From positions 2,108,001-2,172,000 of the forward strand of contig NZ_CP106855.1 in NCBI RefSeq assembly GCF_002209355.2: a stretch of DNA of 64,000 bases, in the 5' to 3' direction. Within the stretch, counting starts at the first letter, position 1. Every line of letters begins with the position of its first letter. The translations under genes and the position numbers were made by a program. The notes under the pieces are model-generated. The model worked only from the letters and a program-made list of their open reading frames with translations, did no database searches and was not told where the DNA came from. The stretch comes from Bdellovibrio sp. SKB1291214 (lineage in GTDB: Bacteria; Bdellovibrionota; Bdellovibrionia; Bdellovibrionales; Bdellovibrionaceae). Below, piece by piece: positions 10,113-62,508 of the stretch.

Positions 10113-10144
10113 AAAAAGCCCGCTGAAAAGCGGGCTTTTTTTTT
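10113..10144 (+). terminator. rho-independent terminator of the 9598 gene
   Basis: GCCCGCT, a short A-rich loop, then AGCGGGC, followed by nine T. It is preceded by an A-run, so it could also work leftward. It lies 27 bases after the stop codon. Confidence 0.9.
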
Positions 10145-10145
10145 A

Positions 10146-10200
10146 AGGTAACAGTTCCCTTTTCGTACTGCGATGCCGTACGAAAAGGGAACTGTTACCT
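10146..10200. repeat. 55-bp palindromic repeat, AGGTAACAG family, copy 1
   Basis: A perfect inverted repeat: 23-bp arms beginning AGGTAACAGTTCCC and a 9-base loop. The last base is the first base of the oppA-type stop codon on the minus strand (10200-10202). Other copies lie at 23414, 30954, 62412 and 62476. Confidence 0.9.
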
Positions 10201-11876
10201 TAGAAGTGCCAGTTTTCGATTTGTAGATATTCGGAATTATTATGGCCCGACATTTCGTATCCTTTAAGACCCTTCGGAATGATCGAAGTGTTGGAACGAT
10301 AGTAACTTGGTAATTGCGGAAGCTCTTCCGTGTAAATCTTTAAAATCTTGTGCATGATTTCGATTCTTTTTTTCTGATCGAATTCTTCTCCAGCTTGTAC
10401 AAGTAGTTTATCCACTTCTTTGTTTTTCCAGCCGGAACGATTGTGGCCTGACCACCCATTTCCTTTGGAAGGTACCATTTCGGAACTCATAGTTCCTTGC
10501 GGGACCATGTTCGGGGACTCGACCCAGGTTAATGCTGCCATCTCAAACTTTCTTTGGCGCAAAATCTCTCCAAAGAACACACGGCCTGGGAAGCTTTTTA
10601 GAATCACCTCAAGTCCCAGTTGTTTCCATTGACCTTGCAGATAAACCGCAATCATTTCATTCATCTTATTGTCGGCAACGTTGGTCATCGTCAGGCTCAT
10701 TTTTTTGCCGTCTTTATAGCGATAGCCATCGGGCCCCATTTTCCAGCCAGCTTCATCCAACATTCGTTGGGCTTTCATTTTGCTGTAAGGGTAAATCGTC
10801 ACAAGCTTGGGATCGTCCGTGAACCATTCATCCAGGGGAGTGGAAAAATGAATGGCGGGAGGTTGTTTCCCATCAAAAAAAGATTTGCCCATTTCACTGC
10901 GGTTAAAACCAAGAAGCAGAGCTTGGCGGACCTTAAGGTCCTTCAAGATGGAGTTATCTAGATTCAGTTCGATATGTGCATACATGGATCCAGCCACATA
11001 TTTCACTTCGTAAGGCAGATTCTGGGCTTTTACTTTTTTTTCGAAAGCTAAGGTCTGATCAAAGCTCATTCCTGATGAAGATGTCATATCGACATTTCCG
11101 CTCATCAAATTTGCTTCCATGGATGTGGAATTTAAAATGAATTTAAAGATCACTTTTTTAAAGTAAGGTTTAGTTCCATAGAATTTTTCATTCGGAACGA
11201 GGACGACGTGGCTGCCTTGTTTTAATTCACTGACTCTGTAAGGACCATTATACAATCCCGGCTCCGTTATTTTTGAAGAGTACAAAGAATTGCGTTCGTA
11301 AGCCAGAACGTGACCCTTGTGTTTTTCAAAAATGGGTAGCTCAAGATGGGCGGGCAGCAGACGAGGGAATGAGACATAATAGTTGTATTGAGGTCTTTTA
11401 AAAATAATTGAACATTTTTTTGGATTGGCGTTATCGATCACGATGTCTTGAACGTTGTCGTAATCATCGCGATTTGGTGTCGCGACTAAATCGTTGCTGC
11501 CGACTTTCCATCCCGCGTGCAAGTCTTTACATGTCACCGGCTTGCCATCGCCCCACATGGCGTTGTCGATGAATTCCACATCCGCTTTAAGATGCTTGCC
11601 GGTTTTATCTGTGAATAAACGGGCTTTCTTGTTTTCGATCGTGGGAATCTCTTTGATCAGGACCGCCTTTGGTTTGCCCTGGGGAGTGATCATTACTAAC
11701 GGACGCATGATCGCGTCTTGTATCAAGCCTCCAGCGGCCATGGTGTTGACCAGAGGATGAATGGTGTCGAACTCGGCATTCACAGCAATTTTTAATTCAT
11801 CTTTCGGGGCTGACCATGTAGTCGCCGTGAAAACTGTTGCCAGTGAAAAAGAAATCAAAGTGAACTTGTGAATCAT
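10200..11876 (-). CDS. OppA/DppA-type ABC transporter peptide-binding protein
   Basis: A 558-residue periplasmic solute-binding protein of family 5 (SBP_bac_5). The signal peptide is residues 1-22 (FTLISFSLATVFTATTWSA). The family features are ELKIAVNAEFDTIHPL at the mature start, MWGDGKPVTCKDLHAGW (the WSDGxPxTAxD-like motif), GLYNGPYRVSELKQGSHVVLVPNEKFYG, and VRQALLLGFNRSEM. AGGAG stands upstream of the ATG at 11876. A longer reading frame upstream to 11933 lacks a signal at its start. No permease or ATPase genes are adjacent, so the transporter partners must be elsewhere or absent. The stop codon abuts a dispersed palindrome. Confidence 0.85.
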   Translation of the reverse strand: MIHKFTLISFSLATVFTATTWSAPKDELKIAVNAEFDTIHPLVNTMAAGGLIQDAIMRPLVMITPQGKPKAVLIKEIPTIENKKARLFTDKTGKHLKADVEFIDNAMWGDGKPVTCKDLHAGWKVGSNDLVATPNRDDYDNVQDIVIDNANPKKCSIIFKRPQYNYYVSFPRLLPAHLELPIFEKHKGHVLAYERNSLYSSKITEPGLYNGPYRVSELKQGSHVVLVPNEKFYGTKPYFKKVIFKFILNSTSMEANLMSGNVDMTSSSGMSFDQTLAFEKKVKAQNLPYEVKYVAGSMYAHIELNLDNSILKDLKVRQALLLGFNRSEMGKSFFDGKQPPAIHFSTPLDEWFTDDPKLVTIYPYSKMKAQRMLDEAGWKMGPDGYRYKDGKKMSLTMTNVADNKMNEMIAVYLQGQWKQLGLEVILKSFPGRVFFGEILRQRKFEMAALTWVESPNMVPQGTMSSEMVPSKGNGWSGHNRSGWKNKEVDKLLVQAGEEFDQKKRIEIMHKILKIYTEELPQLPSYYRSNTSIIPKGLKGYEMSGHNNSEYLQIENWHF

Positions 11877-30398: not shown

Positions 30399-30959
30399 AT
30401 GGGATTGAGAGAAGAAAAAAAGAAACAAACTCGGAAAGCTATTTCAGATATGGCGACAGTCCTTTTTATAGAGCGGGGTTATGACAGTGTTACGACTGCA
30501 GAAATCGCAGAGCGTGCCAAAGTTTCGGTGCCCACTCTTTTTAATTATTTTCCGAATAAAGAGTCCCTGGTTTTCGATGACGATGCTGAACAGGAAGCAC
30601 AACTCGTGGATGCGGTCATGAATAGGAAAAAAGGACAGAGTGTTTATGAGGCGCTTTTGGAAGCAGGACTTGAACATCTGGATTCCATCAAAGATGAGCA
30701 AAGAAAAAATTTTAAATCGTTTATGAATCTAATTGAAAGCACGCCGGCACTAAATTTGTACTCGAAGCAGATGTGGATGCGACATGAAAAGGCTTTGGCG
30801 GATGCCATTCGCAAAGAGTCCAAACAGAAACTGAATCCCATTGAAGCTGGCGCCATCGCGAGATTTGTATTAGACGCTTACCATCGGTCCTTAGGGGCGA
30901 GCAATCCCAAGGCAGCACTGAAATCCCTTTTCAAAATTTTGTCCTACAGGTACAGGTAA
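30399..30959 (+). CDS. TetR-family transcriptional regulator
   Basis: A 186-residue protein. The N-terminal helix-turn-helix is KQTRKAISDMATVLFIERGYDSVTTAEIAERAKVSVPTLFNYFPNKESLV in shortened form: TTAEIAERAKVSVPTLFNYF at about residues 29-48. The C-terminal all-helical ligand domain is less conserved. It is divergent from the TetX-like monooxygenase and presumably its repressor, with a shared palindrome at 30320. GCCGGAGG precedes the start. The stop TAA (30957-30959) is inside a 55-bp palindromic repeat. Confidence 0.93.
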   Translation: MGLREEKKKQTRKAISDMATVLFIERGYDSVTTAEIAERAKVSVPTLFNYFPNKESLVFDDDAEQEAQLVDAVMNRKKGQSVYEALLEAGLEHLDSIKDEQRKNFKSFMNLIESTPALNLYSKQMWMRHEKALADAIRKESKQKLNPIEAGAIARFVLDAYHRSLGASNPKAALKSLFKILSYRYR

Positions 30960-31008
30960 CAGTTCCCTTTTTGTACTGCAACGCAGTCCAAAAAGGGAAC
31001 TGTTACCT
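30954..31008. repeat. 55-bp palindromic repeat, AGGTAACAG family, copy 3
   Basis: Perfect 20-bp outer arms (AGGTAACAGTTCCCTTTTTG and its complement), one mismatch, then five further pairs and a short loop. It holds the tetR stop (TAA 30957-30959), and its last two bases form the nudix stop (TAG, 31007-31009) on the other strand. Confidence 0.9.
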
Positions 31009-48497: not shown

Positions 48498-48552
48498 AGG
48501 TGCCAGGTCCTATTTACGGGAGCAGTGCTCCCAGAAATAGGACCTGGCACCT
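48498..48552. repeat. 55-bp palindromic repeat, AGGTGCCAGG family
   Basis: Perfect 18-bp outer arms AGGTGCCAGGTCCTATTT, a two-base mismatch, then GGGAGCA/TGCTCCC around a single base. Its total length is 55, the same as the AGGTAACAG copies at 10146 and 30954. Its last two bases begin the radical SAM stop codon (TAG at 48551-48553, minus). Confidence 0.9.
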
Positions 48553-54496: not shown

Positions 54497-54536
54497 AAAG
54501 GTACGTCCTTACTTGTGCAGGTAAGGACGTACCTTT
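54497..54536. repeat. 40-bp palindrome, AAAGGTACGTCC family
   Basis: Perfect 16-bp arms AAAGGTACGTCCTTAC and complement around an 8-base loop. Its inner ends are AGGTAC/GTACCT, like the short palindrome at 37175 and the half copy at 46000. Confidence 0.85.
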
Positions 54537-59791: not shown

Positions 59792-60229
59792 ATGTCAATG
59801 CGTTCATTATCACCATGGTCAGCTCGTCGTCCCGTAGGCAGCGACATCTTTAATCAATTTGAAGAACTTTTTAACCAATTCGATCGAGGATTCACTCCTG
59901 CGGCTCGAGAGACAATGGATTTTTCTCCTTCAGTAGACATTGAAGAAAAAGAAAACGCCTATATCGTAACAACGGATTTGCCGGGTTTCAAAAAAGAGGA
60001 CATAAAAATTGAAATGGCAGACAACGTTCTGACAATTTCAGGCGAAAGAATTAAAGAAGCAGGAGACAAAAAATACTCTGAGCGTTCTTACGGCAAATTC
60101 CAAAGAACTTTCAGTCTGCCAGTCCACGTGGCTGCAGATAAAATCGAAGCCGCCTACAAAGACGGAGTGCTTGAAGTGACTCTGCCAAAAGCAGAAAACG
60201 CAAAAAGCCGTTCGATTAAAGTTCAATAA
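59792..60229 (+). CDS. small heat-shock protein, Hsp20 family
   Basis: A 145-residue chaperone with an alpha-crystallin domain. The N-terminal arm (SPWSARRPVGSDIFNQFEELFNQFD) precedes DFSPSVDIEEKENAYIVTTDLPG, FKKEDIKIEMADNVLTISGER, and KFQRTFSLPVHV with GVLEVTLPK at the end. It holds unfolding proteins in a refoldable state. AGGAGG lies six bases before the ATG. Confidence 0.95.
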   Translation: MSMRSLSPWSARRPVGSDIFNQFEELFNQFDRGFTPAARETMDFSPSVDIEEKENAYIVTTDLPGFKKEDIKIEMADNVLTISGERIKEAGDKKYSERSYGKFQRTFSLPVHVAADKIEAAYKDGVLEVTLPKAENAKSRSIKVQ

Positions 60230-60318
60230 ATAGAAGGTATAAACTCGCTGGCCTCGACAGGGACTTATCGGTTTGAGGTTATCGAGGTTTGGCCCGCCAT
60301 CGCTTAGGTGGTGGCGGG

Positions 60319-60501
60319 GTATTTAGCTAAAATTTGGGGTTGGTAAGACAGGTTCTTGAACTTTCCTCCAGGGGCTACCTCTCTAAAATTTTCCTTCCGC
60401 AGTTCGTTTTTCTGTTTCTTCCTTTCCCTTCTTCGACTCTTTTTTAGCCTCGAAGTTTTCCGAGAATCTGCTTTATCAACTCCCAAGTTTTAGCTAAATA
60501 C
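60319..60501. repeat. 183-bp inverted-repeat unit (20-bp arms, one mismatch, extended similarity)
   Basis: GTATTTAGCTAAAATTTGGG (60319-60338) and its near-complement at 60482-60501 (19 of 20 positions). Weaker complementarity extends inward for roughly 15 more bases per side (TTGGTAAGACAG against CTGCTTTATCAA). The interior is strongly pyrimidine-rich on the plus strand. Confidence 0.7.
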
Positions 60502-60530
60502 GCCTCGATTTTTTCGAGGCGTAATGTTTT
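60501..60530 (+). terminator. possible terminator after the inverted-repeat region
   Basis: CGCCTCGA, T-rich loop, TCGAGGCG, followed by TAATGTTTTT. The T-run is displaced, so it is a weak candidate. Confidence 0.45.
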
Positions 60531-60651
60531 TAAAACTGGCTAAGTTTTTGTCACCCTCTCGAAATGACTGACTCAAGAAGAGCGAAATTAGCTACCTACA
60601 AAATCTTGAGGTATCGTGGTTGAAGTGTTTCGTCGTTCACCAGGAGGGTGT

Positions 60652-62411: not shown

Positions 62412-62463
62412 AGGTAGTTCCCTTTTTGGACTGCAGCGCATTCCAAAAGGGGAACTGTTACCT
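62412..62463. repeat. AGGTAACAG palindromic repeat, 52-bp deletion variant
   Basis: Starts AGGTAGTTCCC, lacking the ACA of the other copies (three bases), and ends GGGGAACTGTTACCT. It lies 38 bases after the 61477 gene. Confidence 0.8.
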
Positions 62464-62475
62464 ATAGAAACGACC

Positions 62476-62508
62476 TTGCGTTGCGTTCCAAAAAGGGAAC
62501 TGTTACCT
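62476..62508. repeat. right half of the AGGTAACAG palindromic repeat
   Basis: The right arm ends AAAAAGGGAACTGTTACC plus T. The hutI start lies seven bases downstream, so the leader of hutI is made of repeat sequence. Confidence 0.75.

Follow-up and report, generated by a model that had tools for sequence, protein, structure and literature searches.

Long hairpin behind hsp20

What occupies the interval between hsp20 and the gene for a DUF4382 lipoprotein, where no credible protein-coding gene is found? In the window, the whole 64-kb stretch of DNA analysed here, the gene coordinates confirmed that 422 bp (60230-60651) separate the hsp20 stop (60229) from the lipoprotein ATG (60652). The neighbouring genes encode a histidine-phosphatase (GpmA-like), HSP20, DUF4382, DUF6635 and amidohydrolase proteins. 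The original prediction had placed a possible structured RNA in this interval, with several stems, an inverted repeat and a pyrimidine-rich plus-strand interior. We found the inverted repeat (60316-60338 with 60482-60504, 91% over 23 nt), but the arm length of 20 bp given for it was too short, as pairing of the hairpin runs inward to 41 bp. The several stems were also recovered: two lie upstream of the long hairpin and a terminator-like stem closes the series (Table 1). The interior is pyrimidine-rich as claimed, with 72% pyrimidine in the loop at 60352-60467 (C 28%, T 44%).

Folding statistics set this hairpin apart from its background. The segment 60316-60504 alone folded at -68.8 kcal/mol (z = -7.7), and none of 200 shuffles was as stable; on the plus strand, 60230-60535 gave -117.8 kcal/mol (z = -7.2, 0 of 100 shuffles). 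The minus strand of the whole interval gave a z of only -4.0, compared with -7.2 for the plus strand. Because the minus-strand fold is clearly less special, and because of the terminator, we take the plus strand to be the RNA strand. A scan of the 64 kb for inverted repeats (arms of at least 18 nt, complementarity above 85%, spacer of 60-300 nt) returned the hairpin as the sole repeat of this kind. We regard the feature as genuine and not as a product of chance.

The window also contains a family of palindromic repeats (AGGTAACAGTTCCCTTTTTG...) that form near-perfect hairpins, with at least three copies (10141-10205, 30954-31008 and 62416-62501), and two more tight, near-perfect palindromes with arms of 19-27 bp (48498-48552 and 54497-54536).

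The long helix does not itself look like an intrinsic terminator: its loop is about 100 nt, and the combination of a short GC-rich stem, a 3-8-nt loop and a T tract was found only at 60499-60523. The window RNA starts 86 nt past the hsp20 stop on the same strand. As no terminator-like site was found between the two, co-transcription of the RNA with hsp20 is likely. We rejected a protein-coding reading, because the long open frames in the RNA reflect its pyrimidine bias and an insertion breaks them in one related genome (G011).

Table 1 Features of the hsp20-DUF4382 interval in the window
Feature	Coordinates	Strand	Basis
hsp20 (Hsp20/alpha-crystallin), upstream same-strand gene	59792..60229	+	Pfam HSP20 5.7e-28
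Stem A, small, between hsp20 and long hairpin	60244..60286	+	Fold
Stem B, small, GC-rich	60293..60318	+	Fold
Conserved RNA with long helix around its pyrimidine-rich loop	60316..60504	+	Fold, homologues, covariation
P1 long helix (41 bp), 5' arm	60316..60358	+	Inverted repeat, fold, covariation
Pyrimidine-rich loop region with conserved CCTCCAGGGGC segment	60359..60460	+	Composition, alignment
Inner hairpin CTTCGA...TCGAAG	60431..60455	+	Invariant across four species
P1 long helix, 3' arm	60461..60504	+	Inverted repeat, fold, covariation
Intrinsic terminator-like stem (60499-60523) and T tract	60499..60531	+	Terminator scan

Conservation of the window RNA

The search for other genomic copies that the original prediction had proposed showed that the window RNA occurs once in its own 3.68-Mb genome, and that relatives which carry it also have one copy per genome. 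A BLASTN search of 23 congeners detected it in three (G012, G022 and G011), at 67-73% identity. A covariance model of the window RNA, R1, recovered the same four genomes (the window's own, G000, with G012, G022 and G011) but nothing credible elsewhere in the order; a match in G065 (26 bits) lacked the long arms by eye and was taken as chance. Exact-pattern scans of genome contigs and viral contigs with the window arm gave no match.

The RNA lies behind hsp20 in all four genomes. DUF4382 and DUF6635 genes come next after it in G000, G012 and G022; in G011 an acetyltransferase gene stands in that place, and the RNA persists. Where the site could be located in other congeners, hutI (imidazolonepropionase-like) in most cases comes directly after hsp20, with only a short terminator between them. 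The sequence of stem A is not kept in relatives, and at the position of stem B sister species have another GC-rich stem. A REP-like GC-rich cruciform (TCCGCCTTCGCCAAGGCTACGGCG...) lies between hsp20 and the RNA in sister species (L005 1429-1500, L007 1429-1510). The hsp20 gene of G011 (L034) is disrupted, either by a stop codon or by a frameshift (one internal TAA), and the adjoining RNA is intact.

We aligned the four sequences and found the helices paired in 98.8% of cells, as against 28-48% when they were slid by 1-3 columns. Six pairs are changed on both sides, and none of 500 shuffles reached the observed pairing; the structure that RNAalifold itself derived from the four sequences has eight pairs with changes on both sides. 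With only four sequences, and with 25 of the 38 P1 pairs invariant across them, this covariation support is good and not overwhelming alone. The inner hairpin is without such evidence, because its pairs never vary. By the criterion set in the original prediction, one conserved syntenic copy, here with compensatory helix changes, supports the structured RNA. On its own, the window RNA would count as a structured RNA that has not been described before and has a narrow range.

Comparison with Rfam, also suggested earlier, produced nothing above the gathering thresholds across the 64-kb window. A hit to the rimP leader model, at 29.7 bits where the cut-off is 47, covered the terminator stem and was rejected. 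The original prediction had been reminded of 6S RNA in outline only, and the RNA does fit that outline in its size (about 189 nt) and in forming a long, irregular hairpin, but the 6S model (RF00013) had no match in the window and the genome has its proper 6S gene elsewhere (G000:C1:1481455-1481630, 67 bits). Membership of 6S is refuted, and the chance that the RNA belongs to this or any other known Rfam family is negligible.

A family of long-arm hairpins

In G010, a near relative, the gap between hsp20 and hutI contains a different long hairpin (z = -9.3), whose parts follow in the same order as in the window: small stem, perfect helix, pyrimidine-rich loop and terminator. Its loop sequence has one to three further matches in most congeners, and nearly all of the places matched are long hairpins with unrelated arms. 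These hairpins form a family with a common core, CAGTCCTCG...TGYGGANCTYG, or in fuller form (C/T)TCGGACAGTCCTCGCTCG ... CTGCGGAACTCG, of which the G010 hairpin, 28 nt past hsp20, is a canonical member. Family loops are mostly 59-69 or 94-99 nt long. The core pattern is found in 23 of 24 genus members at 2-13 copies each (the window's genome has eight); outside the genus, five genomes of the order carry it. Its backward control had no match in 144 genomes. Two matches in 225 further genomes of the phylum are at chance level, so we do not place the family outside the order. Viral copies were likewise rejected: 118 pattern matches in IMG/VR are about what we would expect by chance on our own estimate, and 20 viral loci tested with the family model, R2, scored below the canonical range (best 18.8 bits).

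Rfam gave no match to 20 family-bearing stretches except to a neighbouring tRNA, and the core letters were found in no paper of the literature searched. We know of no described class that combines a conserved core with long, locus-private arms rewritten in step. The long-arm hairpin family is previously undescribed.

The arms of the family are 20-56 bp long. For the 20 innermost arm positions, 63 copies gave 94% Watson-Crick pairing between the two arms of a single copy, and only 33% when the arms came from different copies in one genome. Among the 17 consensus pairs of the short-loop alignment, 12 have changes in both partners, and many of the pairs occur in all four Watson-Crick types. At orthologous sites the arms are rewritten, with double changes outnumbering single ones: 13 against 1 behind a TPM-domain gene (35 pairs), 16 against 3 at a second site (33 pairs) and 10 against 2 behind lgt (33 pairs). 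These patterns suggest that the arms act only as a double strand, whose sequence is free if both arms change together. The outnumbering of single by double changes fits template switching during replication, which has been proposed to cause multibase compensatory change with few intermediates (PMC8794818). Because of such multibase changes, the covariation of the arms may partly reflect the mutation mechanism and not selection only. Helices of 20-56 bp whose pairing stays perfect while the sequence is replaced provide a clean natural test of how compensatory change comes about.

Family copies closely follow genes and tRNAs and share the strand of the gene. In 27 of 66 copies the end of a same-strand frame of 100 codons or more falls -17 to +28 nt from the 5' arm, and the upstream genes identified include rpoN, lgt, ahcY, fxsA, dus, hsp20 (in G010) and those for a penicillin-binding protein and a topoisomerase VI A-like protein. 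Other copies adjoin tRNA-Leu(UAA), tRNA-Leu(GAG) or tRNA-Arg(UCU), with the 3' end of the tRNA inside the 5' arm. About 12 of 21 species have the element at the tRNA-Leu(UAA) site; the rest, the window's species included, lack it. Each gene of a convergent pair can own a copy, and a few copies stand behind a TATAAT-like site without a gene (for example, L251). The consistent strand of the copies argues for a role at the RNA level.

Several copies depart from the common form. In two, the 5' arm is lost: behind rpoN in the window's genome (L233 580-700) and behind the topoisomerase VI A-like gene in G012 (L273 670-800); both have ACATTT just upstream of the core. The loops of L227, L229, L243 and L254, behind ahcY and other genes, contain a terminator-like stem, (A)GGGAGCC...GGCTCCCTTTTTTT, that is conserved in many species. 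Much longer hairpins in G089 and G053 (L265, L267-L270), genomes of one family of the order, repeat the reverse complement of the core outside the arms, so that both DNA strands carry the core. At the tRNA-Leu(UAA) site of G001 and G019 (L291, L292), runs of N exactly fill the loop between intact arms, through masking or an assembly gap.

Relation of the window RNA to the family

Is the window RNA a member of this family? The core, CAGTCCTCG ... TGYGGANCTYG, is absent from it, and position-specific scores failed to detect either core half. The family model R2 recovered all tested copies, including decayed ones and those from other genera, and had no match at 60316-60504. The window model R1 matched four family loci, in alignments that share the helix architecture and not the core. 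In its arms the window RNA does fit the family architecture, taken as near-perfect arms of at least 20 bp around a loop of 60-130 nt: its own helix is 41 bp. It also lies directly behind a same-strand gene. The likeness extends to gene order, a near-perfect long helix, a pyrimidine-rich loop, a same-strand place behind a gene and the hsp20-hutI site of G010, whereas the window RNA differs in having no core sequence and a longer loop.

Because a core match is absent, the relation of the window RNA to the family rests on site and architecture. We estimated roughly that the two would share the hsp20 gap by chance with a probability below 1%, given about 12 copies in G010 and some thousands of intergenic gaps. 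As chance sharing is unlikely and the core tests failed, we call the window RNA a positional, divergent relative of the long-arm hairpin family at most, and not a member. A broader reading, to which we give even odds, is that Bdellovibrio-like bacteria have a large undescribed RNA family in which a conserved core lies between helices of free sequence, rewritten wholesale and pairwise between strains, and which marks housekeeping genes and tRNAs at their 3' ends; the window RNA would then be a variant that keeps the helix, loop type and site and has exchanged the core.

Possible origin and function

In the explanation that we favour, with a probability of roughly 40%, the 3' region of the hsp20 transcript contains the window RNA as a structured element, a divergent positional relative of the family. 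This RNA would be transcribed together with the upstream gene, and its long helix would be cut by RNase III, as happens in pre-rRNA processing stems. The cut would free the 3' end of the upstream transcript and release a stable hairpin RNA, the core of which may be the functional part. An RNase III gene is present in the genome. Three observations count against this processing model. The terminators in ahcY-type loops (GGGAGCC...GGCTCCCTTTTTTT) should stop transcription before the 3' arm; the 5' arm has been lost in two copies; and the eight attack-phase sRNA coordinates of the published study (PMC3627812) do not overlap family copies in G006, which we presume to be HD100.

The strongest rival is an origin in a mobile, or once-mobile, DNA element, with a 60-100-bp core inserting at the 3' ends of genes and tRNAs, arms formed as inverted copies of the flank through insertion or template switching, and the window RNA left as an old, diverged relic. 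Such an element would account for the differences in sites between species, of which the variable presence at tRNA-Leu(UAA) is an example, and for the copy of a tRNA end in an arm: the 5' arm there includes the tRNA's own CCA end, which makes the 3' arm the copy. G015 has a second remnant of the 3' arm downstream at this site, and the inverted core copies in G053 and G089 are nested. We nevertheless consider this origin less likely than the processing model, as many copies share their site across several species, compensatory changes keep the arms perfect long after they arose, and there is one copy per site with no link to a transposase found. The small mobile element that had been suggested for the window itself finds no favour in the data either, because the window sequence is single copy and not one of several copies with common terminal repeats; it is the related hairpin family that is multi-copy, and for the family a mobile origin keeps some probability. 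No integron attC R boxes (RYYYAAC / GTTRRRY) were seen by eye at the ends of the window-hairpin arms.

A purely cis-acting 3'-end device would need no released RNA: the helix would block 3' exonucleases or aid termination and so stabilize the upstream mRNA or tRNA precursor. The position of copies directly behind genes on the gene's strand, the separate copies of convergent genes and the terminator adjoining the window helix all agree with it, but it does not account for the strong conservation of the unpaired family core, and copies such as L251 follow a TATAAT-like site instead of a gene. We regard it as rather improbable. It would be more surprising still if the arms were guides that, as locus-private double strands, pair with other transcripts in an antisense or siRNA-like manner. 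Although each locus has arms of its own, which overlap the 3' ends of host genes, the arms of the window and G010 hairpins have no match in their own genomes beyond the partner arm, and arms are replaced wholesale between orthologous copies. The sites behind tRNA-Leu, tRNA-Arg, rpoN, lgt, ahcY and hsp20 suggest a hitherto unknown RNA-processing layer or the domestication of mobile elements in predatory bacteria.

Comparison with known systems

Like the attack-phase sRNAs and merRNA of B. bacteriovorus, the hairpins described here are intergenic structured RNAs of the same bacterial group, but none of the eight attack-phase coordinates falls on a family copy in the presumed HD100 genome (PMC3627812). 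The window RNA is similar to 6S RNA (RF00013) in length and hairpin outline and differs in having no match to its model, the 6S gene of the genome being a separate locus. With REP elements and MITEs the hairpins share the character of intergenic palindromic DNA at the 3' ends of genes; MITEs have conserved terminal repeats and many copies, whereas the arms here are locus-private and the window sequence is single copy. Pre-rRNA processing stems are RNase III substrates that flank 16S and 23S rRNA, and their arms need only be double-stranded. They resemble the hairpins in having long, variable, perfectly paired arms around a conserved RNA. The differences are that the core here measures only 60-100 nt in family copies and about 100 nt in the window RNA, that it lies behind mRNAs and tRNAs, and that cutting by RNase III would here be a predicted step.
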